A stretch of 64,000 nucleotides of DNA from Rhizophagus irregularis. Taxonomy: Eukaryota; Glomeromycota; Glomeromycetes; Glomerales; Glomeraceae. A program made the translations under genes and the position numbers. Every line of letters begins with the position of its first letter. Position 1 is the first letter of the stretch. The stretch spans positions 4,030,001-4,094,000 of the forward strand of contig NC_089443.1 in assembly GCF_026210795.1 (NCBI RefSeq), in the 5' to 3' direction. This document shows positions 2,831 to 31,947 of the stretch, in pieces. A model generated the notes under the pieces. It searched no databases and was not told where the DNA came from. It was given only the letters and a program-made list of their open reading frames with translations.

Positions 2831-3535
2831 CAGTTTACAATCTCGTAAATTTTCAAAATATTTCAACCGTAATATTACGCAGGTTTACAGTTTCGTAAAT
2901 TTTCGAAATATTTTAACCGTAATATTACGCAGGTTTACAGTTTCGTAAATTTTCGAAATATTTCAACCGTAATATTACGCAGGTTTACAGTTTCGTAAAT
3001 TTTTGAAATATTTTAACCGTAATATTACGCAGGTTTACAGTTTCGTAAATTTTCAAAATATTTCAACTGTAATATTACGCAGGTTTACAGTTTCGTAAAT
3101 TTTCAAAATATTTTAACCGGAATATTACGCAGGTTTACAGTTTCGTAAATTTTTGAAATATTTTAACCGTAATATTACGCAGGTTTACAGTTTCGTAAAT
3201 TTTCGAAATATTTTAACCGTAATATTACGCAGGTTTACAGTTTCGTAAATTTCGAAATATTTCAACCGTAATATTACGCAGGTTTACAGTTTCGTAAATT
3301 TTCGAAATATTTTAACCGTAATATTACGCAGGTTTACAGTTTCGTAAATTTGCAGAATATTTTGACCGTAATATTGCGTAAATCTTACGATATTGAAAAC
3401 TTACGTAATATTTTAACCGTAATATCACATAAATCTTACGAAATTGTAAACTTACGTAATATTTTGAAATTTTTCGAAATATTGTGCCATAAACTTTCGT
3501 AAACTTACAAAATCGTAAACTTACGCAATTTTTCG
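2831..3535. repeat. 50-bp minisatellite array, about 11 clear units plus a decayed tail
   Basis: The phrase GGTTTACAGTTTCG returns at 2882, 2932, 2982, 3032, 3082, 3132, 3182, 3232, 3281 and 3331, giving a strict 50-bp period with one single-base deletion. Each unit holds the 12-bp palindrome CGTAATATTACG and a TTTCGAAATATTT-type segment. From about 3370 to 3535 the units become degenerate and rearranged but keep CGTAATATT and CTTACG wording. No reading frame runs through it. The uniform period with substitution-only differences argues for unequal crossing-over or gene conversion. Confidence 0.95.
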
Positions 3536-5379
3536 CGCTATAAAATTTCCTGATGACAGATCAATAATTCTATAATAAATCAATTTAATAAATTAAAAGC
3601 ATGAGTTAAATACAATAGAAATCTAAAAAATTAATGATTGTAAGTCAAAACATTATGCTTTAATACTCAAGAATCATAATTCATCAACCTAAAGTTGAGG
3701 ATTAACCGGATACCTTGCTTTAGATTCAGCGACACTGCCTAAGTTGGATGGGGTGTCACAGGTACACTTTAAGAAGACTCATTATGACTCTCTTGTAAAA
3801 AAGATAAGTATATTCGAAAATACCAAATATGAATTCACCTTAGAAATTTAGCAGGAAACCCCTATAAACAACTGCAGTTTCATCATTACCAAAATCATTG
3901 AACTTAGAGATACAATGAAAAAGTAAATGAGAATGACGGCTTTAAAAAAAAAATACAAATATATTCTTAACTTTGACAATGCATCCTTATTCTTTGGCCT
4001 GGAATTCTCATATGACTAAATTATTGTTGTTTGTAATTTGATCCATTGAATCCACCATAAATTGCCAGGCAAAGCAAACTTTTATTAGACAACTATAGCT
4101 TCATCAATAAACATTGCAATGTGTTTGGATGAATGAACTCCCTGTTTAATAAATTTTAAATGGGCAAACGTGGTCCTAAAACCCATTACAAGATAGGCTG
4201 CAAGAAGTACAAAGCAACCTACCTAACCTACGAGTGGGTTTAAGGGTTAGGGAATCAATTATACGCCAAACACACACAAGTTGGTATGGAGTTAAAGTCT
4301 TACAAACTAAAAATTATTTTTGCCACTTAATTTTCCAATAATCAATGTTATAAAAAAGTTACTTATGACTTAAGCCTACTTAATTATATATAAAATGACA
4401 CTTTGAACAGACAGAGCTCATGATATATGAGAATATCCCATCATGCCTATTTTAATTCTTGATTAAAGGATTTTCATTACATTATCAAACTGATTATATA
4501 AGTTTTACGCCTATATAACATAAGCTTATACCTATATAATTAATCAAACAAGTCCTCTTTTTCCTATAACACACTATGCACGATGGCAAACGATATAGGA
4601 GACAGACTCTACTTTTCAGAAAGAAAGTTTTTTTTTTAAAAAAAAAAAATGTACAAAATAAATAATCTTAAATAAAATAGTGGTTAAATTGACTTTTTAG
4701 AAATTAATAATAGGCCTTATAGCCTTATAATATACGCGATCATTTAATATACACGATTATTTAATCAGACAATTTATTAAATTTGGTATTACATAAACTT
4801 AATCAACCTGATAATTGTTTAGTCTCTTTATAGGTGGATATTTCTTAAATTATCACCTGAACTTTTCAATTTTTTGCAGAATTGAAAATGGAAACCAGAA
4901 AAGTATTCTGATTCAGAATTTTTTTTTAAGAAATGTGTTTGTTATTTTGTAAATTACCAGTTAGAATTGGCTTAAACTTTAAAGTTCTTACTTACGCAAA
5001 TATTACGCAAATATATTTTTTTGATCTGTATAAGAACGTCAAATATAATAACCATTCCATTTTTAACAAAATAACAATTACTTTTTAAACTTGAAAATGT
5101 TATATCTTAGACAAACATTTTATAGTTTTATACATCCATTTTATTTTATATTATTATCACTCGACATTATGGTATAATGTTTAGAATAATGATGTTTCAT
5201 ATTATCATTTACTTGTAAAATTTACTAAATTTATTCAATGTAATATTGTTATAAAATGCATAATTTTATAAAAAAATTAGAATATTTGCTAAGATTTATA
5301 ACTATGTATAATTTAATATTATTATTAATAACTATGATTAAAGGATATGAAGTATTTTAGTATAAATAAAATAACTTAC
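3536..5379. other. Non-coding stretch, nothing recognised
   Basis: No open frame, splice-bounded exon series, tRNA or inverted-repeat element was recognised here. Several poly-A and poly-T runs and isolated GC-richer islands (for example around 3670-3770) are present but do not form a pattern I can name. Confidence 0.4.
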
Positions 5380-6548
5380 CGATAAAGAATCAACCATCTT
5401 ATTTCTGCTCCTAGAAGGTATCATTAATTCTTTTGTTATATTATCTAATTCTTTAATGGCGGGTAAATTTTTTCCATTTCACGAAACCTTAAAGGTTTCT
5501 CTTACGAAATTAACTAAGATATCGAACCCTCCATTTCTTGTTTATTCTGAAATATTAACAGCTACAAGCTGTCAGCTTAGAATCTTTTAGACAAATTCTT
5601 CATCAACATAATCTATAAGTTCCTTTTGAGATAAACTTCCGGTAGATGCTCTATAATTAAATTAATAATTAATACAAACAGTACTATTTAGTTAGCTACG
5701 AAACAATTAAATAAATACCTGTTTTTTCGTATTTCTTTAAATTCTTTTACAGAAGTTAAAATAATTTGATTAAACTTGTTTCTGAAATCTATAAAAAATT
5801 TTCAGGTTTTTTCGAGATACTAGCTTTTAGCTTCATTTGAGTGTATTTTAATTTTGAAAATTTTTGTTATTAACTCATCAAAAACTTCATCACGTAGACT
5901 TCTCGCACGTAAAAAAAGACACTTGACACTTTCGTCCCATAGACGAATTTTATCCTAAAATATTAAAAATACATTATTTAAAAGATTTAGACATAATAAA
6001 TATTATCATGTTAATTTAATACTTACGTTCGTAATTTTAATGAATGATGAGATAGCAACATCGTTTTGTTCATTTCTAGTGCCAATCTTAAAATTTCTGG
6101 ATGGTTGACGAGCCAAGCAACTATTTCTAAATTTGATTTTAATTGAAATACTTCAGGTTTTTTATGATCTTCCGTCTTACCCACATTATCATTATCATCA
6201 TCATCATTATCATCATCATCATCATCATCATCATTACTACTTTTTTCATTTACTACTACAACTTCTTTATTAGCAGATTCAGCAGCTTCTTTATTACTAT
6301 GGTTTTTACTTTTTTTTATCAACTGATTGGCCTTCTCAATGTTAATATCTCTTCTTTTTTTTGTAATTTGTTTTTTTCAATCCTATTATACATATTTTTG
6401 GTATTTATTAATTATTCTTCTTATATATAACTATATAAGCAAAACTTACTATAAATTTACAAGAGAGTTATATCTACATACCTCCTTCAACTTCCATTTC
6501 TTGATTATCATCAGACGATTTATTAGGTGATTTACGTTTAGTCGTCAT
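5380..6548 (-). pseudogene. Decayed copy of a lineage-specific repeated gene family, four exon remnants
   Basis: Reading the minus strand from ATG at 6548, exon 1 (6548-6482, MTTKRKSPNKSSDDNQEMEV) has a GTATGT donor. Exon 2 runs to about 6014 and contains an acidic run of mostly aspartate (6180-6240) and FQLKSNLEIVAWLVNHPEIL; it ends at a GTAAGT donor only if a frameshift near 6070 is accepted. Exon 3 starts after the TTTTAG at about 5956 (DKIRLWDESVKCLFLRARSL) and carries in-frame TAG and TGA codons. Exon 4 (about 5650-5380) carries further stops. The exon plan and spaced motifs (CLFLRAR, FRNKFNQIILTSVKEF) parallel the intact gene at 20051-21412 (CLFLHTR, WRNTFNTKLTALVSEM), so both belong to one family. 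I do not recognise the family. Two of the stops, in a W and an R/W context, fit C:G to T:A changes. Confidence 0.6.
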
Positions 6549-11654: not shown

Positions 11655-12275
11655 ATGAGAAGACGATATAGTCACAACAAACCAATAAAGCCAATTCGAA
11701 TTTGAAATCAGTTTTCTTACAGCAAACCTAATGAGACAACAGATTCTGACGAGAGAGTGGCAATTCGTTCACCTGTACATTCACCTGATAATAATAACAA
11801 TAACATGGACTTTCAGTATGATCATAAAGATGATTTAAGTTTTCAAGATATTAATGATGACAATAATGCATATGGATCAATTAATCCTCAAGACTATAAT
11901 GATGAGATGATATTTTCGCAAGATAATGTCAATTTATCTGATACTAAAGAGGAAGAAGAAAGTGATAACGAATACAATTATGAAGAGAAGGAAGAGAAGG
12001 AAGATAATAATGAAAATAATGACGAAGAGGAGGAAAAGGAAGGTAACAATGATGATAATAATAATCAAGTGGAAGAGGAACATAATAACGATGAAGAAAA
12101 ACGTAATAATGAAAAAAAAGAAATACATCAAATCATTGAAATATTAGATGAAGACAAGATACCGTTCTGCAATGATGAATTTGCACTGTACTTTAATAAT
12201 TATACAACTATGGCATTATTTTGCTAGTTTCAGAAGCATAAAGTTTCTATGAAAGTATATGAAGATCTTATCAAT

Positions 12276-14664
12276 CACTGGTCGAAATAAAAACTTTTGG
12301 TCATGTGACAAATCGGCTGATCTGTCACACATTTCGGCCAAATTTTGGAAATTATTAAAAATTGGCCAAATTTCGACATATATGATTTATGGTCGATTTA
12401 TTGAATTATTTAATCAAACGTTATGCATTACGTGTTACGCATATTAAAAGTTTAAAAAAGGATCATCCTTTTTTAAACTTTTTTTAATTTTTTTCTTCCC
12501 CTCCCCTTTCCTTTCCTTCCTTCCCCTTCCCCCTTTCACTTTTTTTACTTTTTTTTTATAGGTTCGGCTTTTGGGTGGGCTTCTGAAGTACAGAAACTCC
12601 AAAGATTCGTAAGTACGAATACTTTGGAGTTTATTTTATTTTTTTTAATACAAACGGTTACTAACCGTTCTTTTTTCTTTCTTTTTTTAGGTTCGGCCGT
12701 TCGGGTAGGCTTCCGAAGTACAGAAACTCCAAAGATTTGTAAGTACAAATACTTTAGAATTTATTTTATTTTTTTTTAATATGAACGGTTACTAACCGTT
12801 CTTTTTTCTTTCTTTTTTTTTAGGTTCGGCCGTTTGGGTGACTTCCGAAGAATGGAAAAAACCAAGTTTCGTAAGTTCAGAACTTGGTTTATTTTTTTTT
12901 AATATTATGAACGGTTATTAACCGTTCTTTTTCTTTTATTTTTTATAGGTTCGGCGTCTCGGGTAGGGCTTCCGAGTTCCGAAGAACGAAAAAAACCAAG
13001 ATTCGTAAGTAATCTTGGTTTTAATTTTTTTGTTTTTTTTAATTTTATTAATGAACGGTTACTAATAACCGTTCCTTTCTTTATTTTTTTAGGTTCGGGT
13101 GGGCTTCCGAAAAACGAAAACCCAAAGGTAAAGATTAGTACGAATCTTTACTTTATAATTTTTTTTTGTTTTTCTTTATTACAAACGGTTACTAAAACCG
13201 TTTTTTTCTTTATTTTTTAGGTTCGGGTGGGCACAATGAAAGAACGAAAACCCAAAGGTAAAGATTCGTAAGTACGAATCTTTACTTTATAATTTTTTTT
13301 TTGTTTTTTCTTTATTATGAACGGTTACTAATAACCATTTTTTTCTTTATTTTTTTAGATTCGGGTGGGCTTCCGAAGAATGAAAACCCAAAGGTAAAGA
13401 TTCGTAAGTACGAATCTTTACTTTATAATTTTTTTTTTAATTTTATTAATGAACGGTTACTAATAACCGTTCTTTTCTTTTTTATAGGTTCGGGTGGACT
13501 TCTGAAGAATGGAAAAAGGAGAACCTTTAAGATTCGTAAGTAATATACTTACGAATCTTTTTTTTAATGTTATGGAACGGTTACTAACCGTTCCTTTGAT
13601 TTTTTTTTTATAGGTTCGGGTGGATTTCCGTCTTTCCAAGGAACAGAAAAAACTAAAGATTCAGTATAAATCTTTATTTTTTTATTTTTGTTTATTATTA
13701 CGAACGGTTTCTAACCATTCTTTTTCTTTTTTTTTTAGGTCAGTGTCTTTCAAAGAATGGAAAAAACCAAGATTCGTAAGTACGAATCTTGGTTTTATTT
13801 TATTTTTTTTTATAATATTAACGAACGGTTACTGATAACTGGTCTTATTTTATTTTTTTAGTTCAGTGGGCTTCCGAAGAACAACCGAAAACCAAGATTC
13901 GTAAGTAAGTACGAATCTTGGTTCTTTTTTTTATTTTTTATTTTTATTTTTTATTACTATGAACAGTTTACTAATAACCGTTCTTTTCTTTTTGTAGGTT
14001 TCGGGATCTTTAGAAAAAGTGGAACCAAGATTCATAAGTACGAGTACGAATCTTGGTTTATTTTTTATTTTTTTTAATATTATTATGAACGGTTATTAAT
14101 AACCGCTCTTTTTTTCTTTTTATAGGTTTGGTGTCTCAAGTGGATTCCGATAAACAGAAAAAACCAAAGATTCGTAAGTAGAATCTTGGGTTTTTTTGCT
14201 TTTTTTTAATATTATGGAACGGTTACTAACCGTTCTTTTCTTTTTTTTATAGTTTTGGTGGGTTTCCAAAAGATCAAGATTCGTAAGTATATACGAATAC
14301 ATGAATAATGTGATTGTGGAATTGTAGATTAGCAATACTTATTTGTAATATGCATTTATAAATAAAGTTGTGATTTTATTGCGAATATCAAATAAAATGA
14401 GTTGTGGCTGAATATTAGTAAATAAATTTAGTACAAATTTGCAATATAAATTAAGTAACATTCGGAAAACTATTCACCAAAATTTGCTATCTGAAATTGT
14501 TCCGAATGTTAACTGAATTTTGGCCGAAATTTCAAGCTGAACTTTAGGCGAGTGGCAGCGAATTGCAGCCAAAAAATCTGCTAAAGTTCGACTAGCATTA
14601 GACCATAAATCAGCCTAAAATCGGCTGGCTGAATTTTGGCTGATTTGGACTATTTTGACCAGTG
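12276..14664 (+). mobile_element. CACTG-terminal DNA element, copy 1, 2389 bp, filled by an intron-like repeat array
   Basis: Both ends begin CACTGGTC when read inward, and the element is flanked by AAT on each side (12273-12275 and 14665-14667). Removing it restores the host frame: LINIIHNSQFKPIHVV in transposase copy A, which fixes the boundaries and the 3-bp duplication. CACTG termini with 3-bp duplications are the hallmark of the CACTA/EnSpm superfamily. The order inside is a subterminal zone with CGGCCAAATTT-type motifs, an 18-bp inverted repeat with 1-nt spacer (12446-12482), a C/T-rich tract (12493-12540), the array (about 12545-14310), and a second subterminal zone. No transposase is present, so it is non-autonomous. 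Subterminal sequences match copy 2 (28414-31947) in reverse order, so the two are one family inserted in opposite orientation. Confidence 0.85.
12545..14310 (+). repeat. Tandem array of 14 intron-like units, about 129 bp each
   Basis: GGTTCGG-type unit starts lie near 12561, 12690, 12823, 12948, 13092, 13220, 13358, 13487, 13613, 13738, 13861, 13998, 14124 and 14252. Each unit has a T-rich tract ending in AG, an exon-like segment of about 37-48 nt, GTAAGT, then GGTTACTAACC, then the next T-rich AG. GTAAGT sits in the loop of a hairpin whose arms vary together between units: CCAAAG with CTTTGG, CCAAGTT with AACTTGG, CCAAGATTC with GAATCTTGG, and GTAAAGATTC with GAATCTTTAC. TACTAAC sits at the top of a second hairpin, GAACGGTTACTAACCGTTC. 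Exon-like lengths are not all multiples of three, and no long frame is formed, so protein coding is unlikely. Confidence 0.9.
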
Positions 14665-14860
14665 AATATTATTCACAATTCTCAATTTAAACCTATCCAT
14701 GTGGTAAAAAATATCTGAAGATTCCAATCATGGAGAAAATGTCTTCCTCTTCTACCAATAATAACAAAGTCTATTAAAATTTCACCAAAAAAAACTCCAT
14801 CAACCTCACGAGGATCAGAACTTTCGTATGCTAATGAAGCATATGTATTTTGGACCCAGC

Positions 14861-15177
14861 ATTACCGTATATAGCGGGCCACAGTACCCCGGGTATCTTG
14901 CAAAAATCGGGGTTTGACCCTGTACCCTCAGGTACTAAACAAAGCCTAAAAATTCCATTTTTTGCGAATATCTCACGATCTACCAGTCCAATTTGAACGA
15001 TCATTTTTTATTTTGAAGAGCTTAATGAGAGCTATCAAACAAAAAAATGATGGCTCAAATCTGATCACTAGATCACGAGATAATTGTAAAATATCCCCAG
15101 GTACTATACAATTCTATGAAATTTTTCAAGGGGGTACTATGCATAGGGGGGTACTATGGCCCGCGATATTTGGTAAT
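14861..15177. mobile_element. MITE of about 317 bp inside transposase copy A
   Basis: Inward-read ends share ATTACC, then ATAT, GCGGGCCA and AGTACCCC (left ATTACCGTATATAGCGGGCC, right ATTACCAAATATCGCGGGCC), inverted repeats of about 32 bp with a few mismatches. The element splits the block homologous to MYFGPGIEV and EFWHGTLW of copy B: MYFGPSI reads up to 14863 in one frame and EKSEFWHENLW resumes after it. Target duplication could not be settled because the flanks ATT and AAT are themselves complementary. No gene is inside. Confidence 0.75.
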
Positions 15178-17804
15178 TCTGAAGAAAAATCAGAATTTTG
15201 GCATGAAAATTTATGGGGGAATTCCCACTTTTTGGACAACATGAAATATTAATATCAGAAGGTTATAAAATAATACACTTTGATACAATTATAATTTATT
15301 ATCATTAATAATATTTATTAAAGTTATTTTTAATAAATAGTATTGTACTGATCTGGTGATTTTATTTACTATCATGATAATAATGGTCAAAAAAAACTTG
15401 GAAAATTAAGATCAATTTTAAAAAATGATGATGGATATTATCAGTTACGAATTCAAAAAATTTTGGAATATAGTGATTTACCCAGAAATTTAAAAGGGTT
15501 ATTAAGACAACGTCGTTCTATTACTGGTAAAGTATGGTTACAAGACGAACCATTTTTAATTATAATGACTTCTCAAATTTTAGAAAAAGTAACTATATTG
15601 ATGATGTTTCAACATTAAAATATTCCTGATGGTTCATTGCGGATTAGTGAAATAATTTATAAATGTAATGACCGTTGGCACGTTTGTAATATAAAGCTTT
15701 CATACCTACATCCATCTTATTACATTTCTATCAGAAATCCACCATCATCATCTATGCCAGTCTATAAGCTGTTTTTAGATCTTTATTATGATGATTTTGG
15801 TACATTTGGAAATGTATACCATTCTCTAGGTGGTGTTTATGTACAGTTTGGAAATATGCCAGCACATCAAAAAAAGCTAATAAAGAACTATTTGTTATTG
15901 GGTTTATCCCATTTAGAGGAAAATTTGATGAATTTATGATACCATTCATTTCAGAAATGAAGGAATTAGAGAAAGGAAAGGTGATGACTGTTCAAGGACA
16001 AGATACATGGATAATTGCTGGTTTAGGTGTTGTTACGGCAGATTTACCTCAAGGTAACGATATGACAGGAGTACTAAGGTATTTTTTCAACTTAGTTAAT
16101 AATATAATAATATAATTTTATGACAACTATTAAAATTTTTTAAAAAATAAATTTAGACATAATGCAAATAAAGGTTGTCGTACTTGTAAAACTACTAAAG
16201 AATCATTGAGTGCTCACAATCAGGATATCGTAACAACATTACGTTATCATCATATTACAGATGAAGAAATCTTAAAAATTTCTCATGAGACTATAATATC
16301 AAGAAGAGATCAACTTTGTACGGAATATAGTTTACCATCATTACCTAGTATTTTAGATAAATTAAAAAAAAAAAGACATTTACAGATGCCGCAGGATGTT
16401 TATCACATTTTTTTGCAGGAAAAGATTGGGCGGCTACTAAAATTAACTTGTGAATTATTTTCACGAGAAGAAGAAGATAATTTTATCGAAATTTGGAAAA
16501 ATTTTGAAATCCCAAAAAGGTGGTCTCGCTTACCAAATCCGATTACTCACTACAATAGTTTTATGATGTCAGATTTACTTAGATTAGCTATGATTATGCC
16601 ATTTTTGCTAAACCAGTTTTTAAAAGAATCAAGTATCAAACGTAATTAAACAGCCATGATTCAACAAAGAATTGATGCATTTCGAGTTAGTTCAGTTTCA
16701 AAAATTATTATATCTTGTTGGATACATGTTGCAAAAATTATGAAAGCGATTTTTAACAAGAAATTTACATCAGATAGCTATGAGGAATTGCAACAATGTC
16801 TTGAAGAAGAGTTTTCAATCCTTCCAAAGGTATAGTAGTTACAAATTTGATATTGAAATGTAGAATAATTTCAAATAATTAACAATATTTTACTTTTTAT
16901 AGGTTTTTGTAAATTTTGTTAATTTACTAAACATACACGTTAATATGATGCATGCTAAAACACTTATTAATACCCAAGTTGATATAAATGAAATGGTCTA
17001 TCGTATTTTTAAGAGGATGGTACCAAAGACTAATTGCAAAAACATAGATTTGGATTTATTAAAGCGTTACAATACTTTATTTGCAATTCGACATTTAGCA
17101 GATGGTGGTATTAATCCAAGATTTAATAGATCTTGTACTGGATTTACAAATTCAAATTTTGGACAATTATTTTTAAATTGGTATATTACAGAAGATAAAT
17201 ATTCAACAGAAACAACTGAACAAGTTCAAGACGACGATGATGATACAAAAAGTAAATATTTTATTGCATATAGTAGTACATGTTTGATATTTATATTTAC
17301 TAATCTTTTAATTTAGTTATATCTCCAGTAAACTTTATTTCCAATATTTCATTAAAAAAAAGAATGTCAAAGCAGGAACGTGATAAACTTCTTTTAACTT
17401 TACATAATTTTAAAACTGAATTGTTTTTATCTTATGTGGATATGAAGTTTGAGGCGTCACTTATAAACTCTTCAATTAGTTGGTACAAATTTGCATTATA
17501 TATGATTGAAGAAGAAAATGGTATTCTTTCAAAAGTTCACCTACATCTCGATGATTTTATCACAATTTATGAAGAAGATCATGAAGAATCTTATGCAATA
17601 ATCAAAGGTATCTTTCAACATAAAGGTAATAATAACAAATATTGTGCATTTATTGTTGTAGATTGGTTTGAAGATACTATGGTTAAACATTCAGTATTAA
17701 AATGTCCACTTTACCGTCTTCAAGCAACAGGAGATAAATGGAGACGTATTTTTCCAATTACTGTAATAAATAATGTTCAAAAAATATACTTTATTCATAC
17801 TTAG

Positions 17805-22168: not shown

Positions 22169-22456
22169 ATATTTTTATTCTTTAAATTTCGTTTCATGAT
22201 TATTTGTAAATTGTAAACTATTTTACACTATTTATGTAAATAAATTAACATTCTGATATGACGATCAGCATAGTAAAAAATAGATGTTGGTTAAATTATA
22301 GTAAAAAATAGTTAATTTAATATAACATACTCACGTTATTTTTTTAAAAATTTTTTTAACTCACGTCATTATTTTAAAATTTTTTTTAACTCACGTCATT
22401 TTTTTAATTTTTACCCACATTATTTTTTAATATTATGATTAATTTGATTGATTTTT
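22169..22456. other. Non-coding leader of copy B with AACTCACGTCATT repeats
   Basis: At 22330-22425 the phrase CTCACGT(T/C)ATT followed by a T-rich run recurs three to four times just upstream of copy B. No gene is present. Confidence 0.5.
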
Positions 22457-25400
22457 ATGATGAGTTATATAAGAAGAAGAACGTCAAATAACACAATTTT
22501 TAAAAATATTGGTATTAGAAGACGTACTAATATCTCTCATTCTTGTCAAAACTTTGTTCCGGCTTCATCAAGATTTAACAATAATAACAGTGCTAGTAAT
22601 ACTAGTAAAACTAATAGAACTAAAAAACCTTTTACTGACAGGTCGAATTTAGAAATACAAAAAGAACGACATGTACAGAATGAAGAAAATATGACACAAC
22701 ATAATGATTATGACTTCTTTGAAAGCGAAATACAAGATATCGAAGAAGAAAGTATTATACAAATTGAAGATAATACTATAATACAAGATGTTGTTGGTGA
22801 GAAGAATAGAGTACGAGATAATAATTCTAACGAAGACATTGGGTGCATTATCGAAACCAGAAACTCTCACGTAAAATACGATAGTGATTATGCACCATAT
22901 TTTCCAAATGCGACAATTTTCATGCTTTTTACATAGTGTACAAAGCATATGATAGGTATTATAAAGTAATTTATATATTGTGACAAATATGATAGTATTA
23001 TTAAAATATATTTAAGGTGTCACAGCGTATAGAATTAGTAAAAATTCTGAAACACCCAGAATTTAAATGTAACAAAGTACCAAATAATCTTGCCTCATTA
23101 AAGCGATATCGAAATGGATTGCCATTATTACCAGTCAAAAGTCATTCTGTTAGAATTGATTCAAGACAGACACCATCTACGTCTAATTCACGCAAAGATG
23201 CATATTATTTTTCAATATTAGATCATATTAAAACGATTTTAAGTAATCCCTCTTTAAAAAATAATATGTATTTTGGACCCGGGATTGAAGTTAGTACCAA
23301 TAGGACAGAATTTTGGCATGGTACTCTATGGCAAGAATCACCACTTTTCGGCTGTAAAAAAATGACAATTAATAATAGTAAGCCAAGTTTTTATTAAAAT
23401 ACGTAATATTAATATTAATATTAATAATATTTTATACTATTGATAATTAATATTTTATTAGTAATGTTTTTTACGGGAGAATTTATTCAATATAGAATAG
23501 AGTCTAATACAAAAATCGGTAGAATTCTTGCTTTTGTAACGGATAAAAACAATAATACAAAAATCAAAGTTCAACAATTTTTATATAATTACGAATTACC
23601 ACGTAATTTTCACAGTGCAGCTCGTGATTCAACAAAGTTGCGGATGACTGATTGGGTAATCATGATTTCAGAATCTAGGATTATTACAAGAATTTCAGTA
23701 TGGCTCAAAGATAATCAAGAATCCTCTTCTTATGATTACAAAGTTGATGAGATTTTGTACAAATTCAATAATCGTTATATGATGAGACCAATAAAATTTC
23801 GTCATTATCATCCGAGTGAATATATTAAATTACATCCATCACCACTTGGAATACAAACATTGAAAATTTTTATTGATTTATATTTTGACGACTTTGGTAC
23901 CTTCAGGACATCCTATTACAGTTTGGGTGGTTTATATGTTCAATTTGGAAACTTTCCTTTAAAGTTGCGGCAACAATTAAAAAATCATTTTTTAATTGGT
24001 TTAGTTCCATTCGGAAGTAATTTTGAAGATTTTATAAGGCCATTCATCAATGATTTATTAATACTTCAAAAAGGTCTTTTTATGAAAATTGGTAATGAAG
24101 AATATTGGATCAGTGGTGGCTTAGGTGTAGTGACAGCTGATCTTCCCTAAGGGAATGATCTTGCAGGCATTTTAAGACATAATGTTAACCTGGGCTGTAG
24201 ATCTTGTAAATCTACTAAAGAAGAATTGACATTATTAGATTACGATATTCAATTGCATAGTCGTTATCATCATATTACAAATGATGAATTTCTGGAGATC
24301 TAACAATGTGGAAATCGAAGTACAAAAATCACAAATGCAAGATCTTTTGGTTTGTATTTAAAACCTAATATTCTTGATGAACTATTTAGGGATCGTCATA
24401 TCCAAACACCACAGGATCCTTTTCATATGATGGCTGGATTAGGTGGAAGGCTTTTGGATTCAACTTTTGAAATCTTTACTAAAGAAGGTCTTGAAAATTT
24501 TATTATAACATGGAAGAATTTCGAGATGCCAACAACGTGGTCGCGCCAACAAAACCCTGTTACATATTGACATAGTTATTTTATGTCTGATGTTTTAAGG
24601 TTAACAATGATATTTCCTTTTTTATTAAAAAGGTTTCTTGATAATACCATAGTAAAAAGCGAAGTTATTCAAGAAATCAAAAGTTAAAACTCTTTGCAAT
24701 GAGCTTCACAAGCAGTTTTATTGATCAAACAATGTTGGATTAATTTTGCACTTTTAGCAAAATTAGTTTTTACATCCACATTAAAGAGTACCGATTATAT
24801 AAGAATTGATCAACTAACAAAAACTTTTTCTGATGTTGTATTAAAAGTAAGGATTTAATGATTTCTTAACGGATTATTAAATTTACTGATTTAATTTATA
24901 CTTGTATTTTTTTAGCTTTTTCCAAATGATTTCAGAAATCTTCCGAATTTACATGCTTTAAAACATTTATCAGAACATGCAAAACGTTATGGAAGTTTTG
25001 TGAATATTTCTGTATCTTTAAAAGAAATGGTTCATAGACTATTTAAAAATCAAGTACCACATATGAATAAAAAGAACCTGGAATTGGACTTTATAAAGCG
25101 TGAAAATACTTTACAAGGTATTAGGTAATAATAATTTAATAAATTTAACGAGTAATTAATTCATAATATTTCATATTTATTATCTTATATTTTATATAGA
25201 TTTATCTTTGATAATGGATTTGATGAGCATTATCAAAATACTCAATTTTCATCCATGTTACATAATCATAAACTTAAATTTTTATGTGATACATGGTATA
25301 TTCTATCAGCTTCAATGAACGATGATATCAGCGAAGGTAAAATAATTAATATTTATAATTTGCTCGTTAAATGGTTTTATTACTTAATATTATATATGTA

Positions 25401-26018
25401 TTATTTAGATCAAGTAACTATACATTCTCCGTTAAAAAACTATATTAATATTACAGTTAGTGGCAAATGGAGTTTACAAGAAATCAGAAAAGCGGGTTTT
25501 AATGGCAAAGATCTTGATGATAATATGAAGAGTGATTTGTATTGGGCGTATAGTTTTATTTCAAGAATGATGCCTTGATTATTAACACTAAAGTAATATT
25601 TTACCGTCAAGTTTTATTTGAAATATTAGATGATGATAGCTCTTTAAGAAGTACAGTGAAACTTCATGTCGGTGATATAGTTGATGTACCTGAAGTTTCT
25701 GGTGACAATGACGATGATAATGAAGAATGGTTTGCAAAAATTATTGCAATTATTATTCATAAAGATAATAATAATAACAATTGCATTTTTTTAATGTTTG
25801 ATTGGTTTGAATATCTTAATTTTGATACTAATATATAGTGTCATTATTATAAATTACAAGAAAGAGAGAATTGGAAAAGGATTCATCCAATTACAATTAT
25901 TTCGGGTCAGCCAAAGTTACATTTTATTTATAATTGCAACGAATCTTGTATAATAGGAAAACATGATGTAAATAATAGGATTTTTTATAGAAATGATTAT
26001 TTATATACTACTGTATAA
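22457..26018 (+). pseudogene. tnp2/CACTA-like transposase gene, copy B, broken
   Basis: About six coding blocks match copy A in order: 22457-22954 (DSDYAPYFPNATIFMLFT, then TAG), 23017 onward (LVKILKHPEF, LPLLPVKSHSVRI, NNMYFGPGIEVSTNRTEFWH), 23464-24857 (DLYFDDFGTFRTSYYSLGGL, GLGVVTADLP, HNVNLGCRSCKSTKEE, RHIQTPQDPFHMMAGLGGRL, WKNFEMPTTWSRQQNP), 24917-25126 (EMVHRLFKNQVPH), about 25200-25341, and a last block ending NWKRIHPITIISGQPKLHFI. The region 25650-25790 (VKLHVGDIVDVPEVSG) resembles a BAH-like domain. At least seven in-frame stops are present. The one at 24148-24150 is TAA where copy A has CAA (DLPQGND), a C-to-T change. The TAG at 22934 occupies the same position as a TAG in copy A (12225). 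The zinc-binding-like CRSC is intact. Function would have been DNA transposition; it is dead. Confidence 0.7.
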
Positions 26019-28413: not shown

Positions 28414-31400
28414 CACTGGTCAGAATAGTCCATTTCGGCAAAATTTTAAATTGCCGAATGTTGGACGAAATTTGGTCTGACCTTAGCCGATCAGTACCAA
28501 AAAAATCGGCAACTAATTTTATGGACGATTTGCACTGTAACGCCTGCCAATTGTTAACAAATCAATCAGTAGAAATTGGCAACAAATCGGTAAAATTAAA
28601 TTGATGATTGTTAATAAACCTAATAATTATTATTACCGATTTTTGTACATTTAGCTGATTCTAATTTTATAATAATTTATTAATTAAATTTTATTAATTA
28701 AATTTTATTAATTCATTTTATTAAAAATTACATATTAAATTAATATATAGCTATCTATCATCTATCTATATACACCATCCACCGTCCACCATCCATCATC
28801 CATCCATCATCCTCATCTAACCTGATAAAAGTCTGAAAAAAACCTACCAGAAAAGGAGGAAACAGTTAGTAATTCATTTTTTATAATAAAAAAAATGAAG
28901 TTTCAAAAATATTTCGAAACTTACCCACCCATCCGATAAAATCCGAAGGAGAGAGAACCTACAAAAAAATTAAAGAAACGGTTAGCAAACCGAGTCTTTA
29001 ATAAAAAAATTTGTTTCAAAATATTTTGAAACTTACCAAACCAAAAATCCGAAGTGGAAATCTACAAAAAAAAGGAAGAAACAATTAAAGTTTCTTCGAT
29101 AAAATAATTTGTAAGAAAGAAACGATTAGTTTTTTACTAAAAAAGTTTTGCAAAAAAAACAAAACTTTGAAACACACCTATCCAACGTCCAAGAACTGGA
29201 GGCCGAAACCTACAAAATATAAAAAAAAATTAAAAAAAATAATTATTTTAAAGAGTTTCAAAGTTTTCGAAACTCACCTATATATCCAACGCCCAAGAAT
29301 CGGAAGCTGAAACTTACAAAGAAAAAAAAAATAATTAAAAAAAAATGTTTTTTTTTTGAGTTTCGATTATTTCACTTCGAAACTCACCCATATATCCAAA
29401 GCCCCAGGCCGAAACCTACTACAAAGAAGAAAAAAAAAATTAAAAAAATATTTTTTAGAGTTTCGAAGTTTTTGAAACTCACCTAGTATATATCCAAAGC
29501 CCAAGAAGTCAAGAACCGAAAGCTGAACCTATAAAAATAAAAATATAAATTTAAAAAATTTTTTTTCGCCCAATAGAAGAATAAAAGCGAAAGAAAGGAA
29601 AAGAATAAAAAAAAATGTTAGAAATTAAAATTAACGTTTTTTATCAAAGTTTTGAAAACGAAACTTACCTGGAATATCGGCGTCCAAGTTGGAGCCGATT
29701 TCCTATATAAAAAAATAAAAAAAAAAAGTTTTTAAAAAAGTTTCGAAACATTTGTTTCGAAACTTACCTGGAATATCGGCGTCCTCGTTGGAGCCGAATT
29801 CCTACAAAAAAAATAAAAAAAAACGTTAAATATAACGTTTTTTATATTAAAGTTTCAAAAATTTTCGAAACTTAACTTTGGGATTCGGTATCCACGCTAG
29901 AACATTCCTAAATAAAATAATAAAAAAAAACGTTTTTTTTATTAAAAATGTTTTATTAAAGAAGTTTCAAAACTTTAGTTTCGAAACTTACCTGGAATAT
30001 CGGCGTCCTTGTTGGAGCCGAATTCCTACAAAAAAAAATAAAAAAAACATTAAATATAACGTTTTTTATATTAAAGTTTCAAAAATTTTTAAAACTTTAC
30101 CTAGGAAACGGTATCCACACCGGAACCGATTTCCCACAAAAATAAATAAAAAAAAATGTTTTTTTTGTTAAAAAAACGTTATTTAAGAAAGTTTCGAAAC
30201 TTTTTTTTCGAAACTTAACTTTGGGATTCGGTATCCACGCTGGAACCAATATCCCTACAAAAAAATTAAAAAAAACGTTAATATTTAACGTTTTTTATAT
30301 TAAAGTTTCGAAAATTTTCGAAACTTTACTTTGGAATTCGGCATTCACGCTGGAACTGATTCTCTACAAAAAAATAAAAAAAATGTTAAATATTTAACGT
30401 TTTTTATATTAAAGTTTCGAAAATTTTTGAAACTTTACTTTGGGATTCGGTATCCACGCCGGAACCGATTCCCTACAAAAAAATTAAAAAAAACGTTAAA
30501 TATTTAACATTTTTTATATTAAAGTTTCAAAAATTTTCGAAACTTTACTTTGGGATTCGGTATCCACGCTGGAACCGATTCCCTACAAAAAAAATATAAT
30601 AAAAAACGTTAATATTTAATGTTTTTTTATTAAAGTTTCAAAATTTTCAAAACTTTATTTTGGGATTTGGTATCCACGCTGGAACCGATTTCCTACAAAA
30701 AAAAATATAATAAAAAATGTTAATATTTAACGTTTTTTTATTAAAGTTTCGAAAATTTCGAAACTTAACTTTGGGATTCGATATCCACGCTAGAACCGAT
30801 ATCCCTATATAAAAAATAATAAAAAAAAAACGTTTTTAATATAAAAACGTTTTATTAAAGAAAGTTTTGAAATTCTTTTTTCGAAACTTAACTTTGGGAT
30901 TCAGTATCTACGTCAGAACCGATTCCCTACAAAAAAATAAAAAAAAAACGTTAATATTTAACGTTTTTTATATTAAAGTTTCAAAAATTTTCAAAACTTT
31001 ACCTGGAATATCGGTATCCACGCTGGAACCGAATTCCTATATAAAAAAATAATAAAAAAAACGTTTTTTTATTAAAAACGTTTTATTAAAGAAAGTTTCG
31101 AAAATTTATTTCGAAACTTTACCTAGGGAAACGGTATCCACGTCGGAACTGATTTCCTACCATAATAAATGAAAAAAAAACGTTTTTTAGTTAGAAAACG
31201 TTTTTTTTAAGATAGTTTCGAAAATCTTTTGAAACTTTATCTAGGGAAACGGTATCCACACTGGAACCGATTTCCTGCAAAAAATATAAAAAAGAAACGT
31301 TTTTATCTAAAAACGTTTTTTTTTAAAAGAAAGTTTCAAAATTTTTCAAAACTTTACCTGTAATATCAGTATCTAAGCCGGAACCGATTTTCTTTACTAA

Positions 31401-31947
31401 AAGTATAAAAAAGAAACGTTTTTTAACGTTAAAAAATGTTTTTTTAAAGAAATTTTGAAACTTTTTTAATTTAATAAAAAGTTACCGAATTCAATGTGTA
31501 CATTTATGTGAAGAACTAAGGTGTAAAAAAGGGAAGGGAAAAGGACGAAAGAGAGGGAGGAAAGGATGCGAAAAGTTTAAAAAGTTTAAAAAAGTTTCTG
31601 TAAAATGTCGATCTTAATCATCTGATGATTTCAACAACTGATTTGCCGAATTATTGCCAATTTTTACCAATTTGGCAAATTTGGCAAAATTGTGTCGATT
31701 TATATGACCAATCGGCATAATTTTACTGAATGAACTTAAAGGAACAATTTTTCGTATATCAATCAGTATAAGTTGATTTTCCACCAAAAGACTGAACAAG
31801 CTTTTGTTTAACAATCAGTATCAGTCAATTTGTAATTGATTTTACCGATTTTTGCCATTGGTCAAAAAATGTGATGAATCACATGACCAATCGGCAAAAA
31901 TCATGCCGAAAGCTCTTAACGGTCAAAAGTTTTGATTTCGACCAGTG
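28414..31947 (-). mobile_element. CACTG-terminal DNA element, copy 2, 3534 bp, filled by an intron-like repeat array
   Basis: Ends are CACTGGTCAGAATAGTCC (left) and, read inward from the right, CACTGGTCGAAATCAAAACT. TAT flanks both sides (28411-28413 and 31948-31950). The left end matches the right end of copy 1 (CACTGGTCAAAATAGTCC) and the right end matches the left end of copy 1 (CACTGGTCGAAATAAAAACT), so copy 2 is the same family in reverse orientation. The purine-rich tract at 31525-31570 is the reverse complement of the C/T tract of copy 1 and lies in the same relative place. No transposase gene is inside. A CACTA/EnSpm-type non-autonomous element is the best assignment. Confidence 0.85.
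28840..31450 (-). repeat. Tandem array of about 23 intron-like units, about 110 bp each, minus strand
   Basis: On the minus strand each unit reads T-rich tract, GTAG, an exon-like segment of usually 34 nt (for example GAATTCGGCTCC to GATATTCCAG), then GTAAGT or GTAAAG. It continues with a hairpin of the AGTTTCGAAA/TTTCGAAACT type and a second hairpin ACGTTAAATATTTAACGT. Acceptor-like CTAC or CTAT (plus strand) recurs near 28949, 29052, 29207, 29305, 29413, 29526, 29702, 29802, 29905, 30026, 30132, 30251, 30363, 30472, 30582, 30692, 30804, 30926, 31034, 31157, 31275 and others. Units at 28850-29000 still carry GGTTAGCAAACC, close to the GGTTACTAACC hairpin of copy 1. The branch site is less canonical elsewhere. 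A 34-nt exon is not a codon multiple, arguing against coding. Confidence 0.85.

Follow-up and report, generated by a model that had tools for sequence, protein, structure and literature searches.

The window studied here—the whole stretch of 64,000 nucleotides from Rhizophagus irregularis, with positions counted from its first base—contains a CACTA-type transposable element of family A that harbours, at 12562-14282 on the plus strand, an array of 14 tandem exon-intron-like units. Most of these units, not all of them, exhibit the order of a spliceosomal (U2) intron, i.e. donor, branch point, pyrimidine tract and acceptor, at host-like distances. The same signal order recurs in array types that have little exon sequence in common, and such an array is, in our judgement, rather probably a non-coding gene that is carried by non-autonomous CACTA elements and spliced at multiple introns.

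The exons of the array start at 12562, 12691, 12824, 12949, 13093, 13221, 13359, 13488, 13614, 13739, 13862, 13998, 14126 and 14253, all on the plus strand. An earlier note on this DNA had credited each of the 14 units with every landmark of an intron, including a perfect TACTAAC, and its observation as a whole is partly confirmed: the array itself and the acceptor TAG behind a T-rich tract hold for all 14 units, whereas the exact 5' splice-site-like GTAAGT is found in 11 of them and a branch hairpin in 13. The GTAAGT sites are located at 12609, 12739, 12871, 13005, 13268, 13404, 13536, 13776, 13901, 14174 and 14283 (within 12609-14288, plus strand); the exceptions are unit 5 with GTAAAG (13128) or GTACGA, unit 9 with GTATAA (13664) and unit 12 with ATAAGT (14034), the GT being lost in this copy. 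The hairpin-borne branch-point-like motifs begin at 12660, 12791, 12917, 13061, 13191, 13327, 13459, 13583, 13711, 13831, 13970, 14095 and 14225 (within 12660-14230, plus strand), unit 14 being without one and the units 5, 9 and 12, devoid of GTAAGT, being among the 13 that have it. The exact TACTAAC is confined to four units, TACTAA occurring in nine (unit 5 with TACTAAA), and the remaining motifs are TATTAAC, TTCTAAC, TACTGAT and TATTAAT. The exons ending at GTAAGT measure 30-56 nt and the ten introns delimited by GTAAGT and TAG 78-97 nt. On the left, the array is preceded by a putative promoter-like region (12406-12541, plus strand) with a hairpin from 12451 (TTTAAAAAAGGATCATCCTTTTTTAAA) and a C+T-rich tract from about 12495; on the right, downstream of the last exon, there are candidate poly(A) signals AATAAA at 14361, 14391 and 14421 (within 14361-14426, plus strand), AAUAAA being given in the available part of PMC10234402 as the main poly(A) signal of R. 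irregularis (56.7%).

The intron pattern of the array can hardly be due to chance. When the sequence is scanned by script for a donor, a branch motif, a tract with pyrimidines at 10 or more of 14 positions and an acceptor, over a length of 45-150 nt, this grammar finds ten introns on the sense strand and none on the antisense one, with a mean of 1.05 and a maximum of 4 in 100 dinucleotide shuffles, and GTAAGT is present 12 times in sense and once in antisense, the rest of the window having 0.52 per equal length. In 20 family-A loci, the window's own included, the introns total 216 in sense versus 11 in antisense, with at least seven sense introns in 18 of the 20 loci (three in L037 and none in L032). 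Host tubulin introns, inspected by eye at seven exon joints of two loci, show the same kind of signals as the array introns, the closest one being GTAAGC...TTCTAAC...ATAG, and others having GTATTT or GTATGT as the donor. At the locus L031, a family-A unit is split at element offset 1185-1476 by a short insert repeating variants of GAACTATGACCACTTGTCC.

The element carrying the array covers 2,389 bp (12276-14664, plus strand) and possesses CACTGGTC ends with AAT on both sides, which bears out the former placing of the mini-introns in a CACTG transposon; its terminal inverted repeats are CACTGGTCGAAATA (12276-12289, plus strand) and CACTGGTCAAAATA (14651-14664, minus strand), the right end holding also short repeats, e.g. 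CTGAATTTTGGCCGA. The second CACTGGTC element of the window, a member of family B with its own array, spans 3,534 bp (28414-31947, minus strand) and has ATA on both sides. CACTA elements are characterised by terminal inverted repeats that begin with CACTA or CACTG, and CACTGGTC is present at both ends of both window elements. The 3-bp target duplications, AAT and ATA, respectively, have counterparts in the family-A loci with both exact ends (six of seven duplicated, the window's own included; L022 without) and in five of nine other elements (L042, L049, L050 and L052 without). The 13-base end pattern CACTGGTCRAAAT occurs 504 times in the genome (248+256) versus nine times (2+7) for the reversed control. 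Both family-A ends were found at at least 40 genome places, own copy counted (left end, best 40 of 157 candidates; right end, best 40 of 87), and the family-B left end also at at least 40 (best 40 of 86 candidates). A larger relative with CACTGGTC ends, L042 (8,405 bp), contains a 796-residue frame that matches PF02992 (Transposase_21/tnp2) above the cut-off (E=2.8e-11), a piece of L044 matching it below the cut-off, and no frame comparable to the L042 transposase is present in either window element. The CACTGGTC elements are a CACTA/EnSpm-type family, and both window elements look non-autonomous.

L042 and L044 have repeats of their own. An 89-bp tandem array (L042:4687-5091 with 4.6 copies; L044:4547-6309 with 19.6 copies) sits between the transposase frames and opposite-strand frames, its repeat having GCTAACG and TATAG, but with a donor-branch spacing too small for an intron; in L042, it is adjoined by a 147-bp repeat (5203-5935, five copies) with an open frame, which encodes a charged repeat region.

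The family-A element lies inside a reading frame. The window has two related genes, at 11706-17316 and 22448-25838, with the motif YYDDFGTF...YHSLGG.YVQFGN.P and, in the pieces tested, no convincing Pfam match; the former is interrupted by the CACTA-type element, by stops and apparently by a second small insertion (~14870-15180, GCGGGCC ends). With four ORF pieces of the second gene (22448-24570) used as the tblastn query, the homology restarts at 14662, i.e. at the right border of the element, with E=5e-7 for the nearest piece, and the left flank gives no match to that gene at E<0.05, its frame being open up to the element border after one TAG. The insertion into a coding exon is thereby upheld, the gene hit being already degenerate.

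The second window element, absent from the earlier note and having the same design with an unrelated array, is taken as the strongest evidence. Its array, consisting of units of ~110 bp on the minus strand, and the one at 12562-14282 show no mutual match at E<=1e-4, and the grammar counts 16 introns in sense and none in antisense, the shuffle mean being 1.24. The donors are GTAAAG, GTAAGT, GTGAGT and GTTAAG and the acceptors mostly GTAG or ATAG; the last units have their branch motifs, among them TGCTAACC and TTACTAAC, in hairpins, the middle units being weaker, several of them with a weak branch or the GTTAAG donor. Four family-B copies yield sense/antisense counts of 10/1 (L054), 2/2 (L055), 4/4 (L056) and 3/0 (L057). 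Three Rfam matches to TD-2 RNA, below the gathering score, fall into this array (30263-30576, minus strand) and probably reflect a chance likeness of fold.

The genome search for like elements with arrays, proposed in the earlier note, also succeeded beyond the window. Nine further elements were chosen by their end spacing, with the content unseen beforehand, and five of them contain intron arrays, namely L041, L049 (by eye), L050, L052 and L053; the remaining four are without such arrays, L042 and L044 having transposase pieces, and L043 and L051, both with CACTGGTC ends, 35 and 27 copies, respectively, of an 81-bp repeat, in which the grammar is absent on both strands. The sense/antisense counts are 0/16 for L050 with its reversed array (shuffle mean 0.65), 8/2 for L052, 9/6 for L053 (five of the six antisense introns within the terminal repeat), 8/10 for L041 with arrays on both strands (shuffle maximum 6) and 3/5 for L049 with arrays on both strands by eye (not above the shuffle maximum of 5); the array-less elements have 4/3 (L044), 1/1 (L042) and 0/0 (both L043 and L051). 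The scripted count by itself does not decide all five array calls. Seven array types, A-G, were named by their exon and 5' sequence, some of them by eye. Where different types match at E<=1e-4, the match is mostly short or traces to a composite array, like that of L050, where A-like units are followed by B-like ones. In type C, the donor, GTACCT, is a weak one.

The exact 18-base 5' hairpin is found 254 times in the genome versus none for its reversed control, with no match in the viral contigs, and the branch-hairpin core ACGTTACTAACGT 114 times versus 12 for the control. Introner-like dispersed single units were considered and rejected, all three isolated hairpin matches examined being situated in an array or what remains of one. 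The 5' hairpin is clustered at four loci, L058-L061, which represent a sister family of the CACTGGTC elements, with the left end CACTAGTC in two of the four (L060, L061), the right end GACTAGTG in all four, and the respective sense/antisense counts of 14/0, 10/0, 20/4 and 15/0. The promoter-like region of the window element is 81.9% identical to that of L061 (149 columns) and 81.2% to that of L060, and the array is 75.6% identical to that of L061 over 1,912 columns; between L061 and the window element, neither the outer 130 nor the last 316 bases are matched, either at E<=1e-5 or within the top 40 pieces. Elsewhere in the window, at 2833-3425, there are 12 copies of a 50-bp palindrome-rich repeat (GTTTACAGTTTCGTAAATTTTCGAAATATTTTAACCGTAATATTACGCAG) with no clear intron grammar by eye.

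The family-A units decay chiefly by C to T and G to A changes. Fourteen of the 20 copies supplied 164 units for scoring (the other six were left out, their right end being outside the fetched stretch, and units with a missing anchor were dropped); the acceptor G is retained in 92.1% of them, as compared with 90.7% for the donor G and 52-97% for the other G columns. The donor G ranks second among the eight G columns in a CpG context, at best a hint that there is constraint, and clear protection of the splice letters is not seen in these 164 units of decaying copies. The case for selection rests on the recurrence across array types and families, not on the copies. Such GT and AG letters without clear extra protection favour a neutral expansion, in which non-autonomous elements would have picked up an intron-bearing fragment on one or a few occasions and multiplied it into a palindrome-rich satellite, with its signals as unselected relics; the non-intron tandem arrays, by which internal arrays appear habitual in other CACTGGTC elements, and the branch hairpins of several types, which look alike and may be homologous, point in the same direction. 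So does a loop inversion in the unit placed like unit 12 of the window, where GTACTTAC replaces GTAAGTAC in L034, L038 and L039 and the donor is lost; it shows that DNA-level palindrome processes also act. Against this stand the persistence of the ordered signals, though the exons of the array types are largely unrelated, and the promoter-like region and array common to families with different ends, leaving neutral expansion a serious contender, yet an improbable one.

The hairpins deserve separate attention. Most GTAAGT sites of the window array are indeed, as had been described, in a hairpin linking the exon end to the intron start, but this feature is not constant, the 5' hairpin being absent by eye in the types D, F and G (L049, L041). 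Covariation was evaluated in an alignment of 23 5' hairpins, 21 of them distinct (13 of the 14 window units plus 10 units of L050), using shuffles that leave the relatedness among hairpins in place; the branch-hairpin alignment A2, with some rows out of register, was kept out of the pair counts, and a loop-indel tally was discarded, since its matches took in non-array sequence. Pairing cells amount to 88.3% versus 79.6% in the shuffled alignments (0 of 500) and 27-51% in slid versions, cells changed on both sides to 23 versus 9.8 (0 of 500), and the covariation score to 0.289 versus 0.148 (0 of 500); the six pairs with a double change (51 of 500) and the 13 further pair types (118 of 500) are not unusual compared with the shuffles. 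The covariation of the GTAAGT stem, to which the earlier note had drawn attention, accordingly surpasses every slid version and, on three of the five measures, also the shuffles, the other two giving no clear excess. The next step taken there, that it implies selection for structure, does not follow from covariation alone: palindromic DNA can undergo arm-to-arm correction, and in one unit type the loop is inverted in three copies. The stems are real, and selection acting on the RNA is, from the sequences at hand, plausible. A scan of hairpin loops revealed a strong polarity, with GTAAG in 161 loops versus its inverse in 4 and a branch-like motif in 171 versus its inverse in 3, neither being present in 68; two of the inverse loops come from the oppositely oriented array in L060. 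This polarity can be inherited via tandem duplication.

Folding of seven units (six of the 14 in the window plus one of the second array) gave structures more stable than the shuffle mean in every case (z -2.85 to -5.03), and these, together with the covarying stems, would suit a source of intron-derived hairpin RNAs, in which splicing would free structured introns or hairpins acting as small or lariat RNAs. The array stems are, however, short, below the typical length of a Dicer substrate, the types D, F and G have no 5' hairpin by eye, and Rfam at E<=0.1 found nothing above threshold in the window segment 11800-32300, its only matches being the three sub-threshold TD-2 ones of the second array. 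Small RNAs are made at transposon loci of R. irregularis, according to the available part of PMC8647823, and we nevertheless consider such a role unlikely. A role at the DNA level—palindromes binding a transposase or host factor or folding as cruciforms, with the splice-like look being secondary—is very unlikely: the many near-perfect palindromic stems and the loop inverted in three copies would agree with it, but palindromes need neither T-tracts, nor TAG, nor strand polarity, and type G displays the intron grammar without hairpins by eye. The array is, moreover, internal and not subterminal, which is why its function as transposase-binding subterminal repeats, raised previously, is unlikely as well.

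The array gives no sign of a long reading frame, in keeping with the original description. A gene for a repeat protein, each repeat being encoded by a short exon of its own, is scarcely credible. Stops are less frequent in the exons than after mono-shuffling in each of the 14 sets with exons, but the antisense strand has still fewer in 11 of the 14 (an equal number in one and more in two, L052 and L049 minus), for which reason coding is not supported, and the exon lengths, 22-72 nt across the sets, leave no constant remainder, the frame not being kept. SP7-like effectors, considered for the repeats, are different, one conserved intron preceding the first repeat in SP7 as described in the available part of PMC11333574. 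Concerning spliced retrocopies, two exon-exon junction patterns with one mismatch allowed had no match in the genome.

Returning to the preferred reading, a multiply spliced non-coding gene, we infer transcription, splicing and benefit of the arrays from their signals. The array would be the transcription unit of the element, composed of tiny exons and of spliceosomal introns that are likewise short (78-97 nt in this array), its transcription being driven from the C+T-rich region on the left and ended at the AATAAA sites on the right. Each repeat unit would comprise a single exon with its acceptor and donor, plus one branch point; unequal exchange or slippage would gain or lose a whole exon plus intron, with the grammar intact, and this would explain the varying number of units among the copies (seen in four). 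Mobility would be provided by the transposase from the larger CACTGGTC elements. The camouflage suggested earlier, with the element being spliced out, is unlikely as stated, because the splice signals are internal and the host RNA would, after splicing, still contain the element ends and mini-exons. The benefit would most likely consist in the intron-crowded transcript being treated like that of a host gene, processed efficiently and spared the silencing directed against mobile DNA poor in introns. In human cells, introns counteract the silencing of mobile DNA by HUSH, even if unspliced (PMC8770142, available part), and splicing in vitro is delayed by tandem UACUAAC, to which SF1 binds (PMC3116199, available part). 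As a more tentative idea, a class of CACTA elements in this AM fungus might have swapped its coding content for intron trains that mark the transcript as self, i.e. for a silencing shield, with the hairpins tuning the pairing of tandem sites.

If spliced, the arrays would be naturally occurring genes with at least a dozen similar introns one after another. They would make it possible to test directly how the splicing machinery pairs tandem sites, whether RNA hairpins at the donor and branch point help or hinder, and whether mobile DNA outside animals is protected by introns; tandem duplication within transposons would then represent a source of new multi-intron genes.

With regard to known systems, published work on tandem introns, introners and CACTA elements revealed no such design in titles and abstract openings, in a coverage that leaves out most subscription papers and bioRxiv preprints, and the searched main text of two papers on R. 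irregularis transposons (PMC11075540, PMC8647823) is without any word beginning with 'intron'. The closest framework is the fungal branch of non-autonomous CACTA/EnSpm (CMC) elements, which are alike in the CACTG/CACTA ends, the 3-bp target duplications and the larger relative encoding tnp2, the difference being the internal exon-intron trains of the R. irregularis elements. The soybean Tgm-Express, in the available part of its description (PMC1947982), is likewise a CACTA element with multi-exon, spliced content; it carries, however, host gene fragments, whereas here one small unit is repeated up to ~19 times (grammar count), often with hairpins and with coding unsupported. In a human non-coding gene, SNHG14, introns are likewise arranged in long tandem runs (29 and 48) and release SNORD115 and SNORD116 (PMC11608373, available part); that is a host gene with intronic snoRNAs, whereas the elements described here are mobile, bear hairpins and have introns in which no encoded RNA is known. 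Introners share the link between DNA transposons and spliceosomal introns, but an introner turns into an intron at its landing site (PMC9860276, available part), whereas the present introns are internal and the element ends would stay in the RNA. The internally symmetrical stwintrons of Hypoxylaceae, finally, are likewise fungal introns with inverted-repeat symmetry; they are, as presented in the available part of PMC8469720, introns at new positions in host genes, for which DNA transposition was excluded by their authors.
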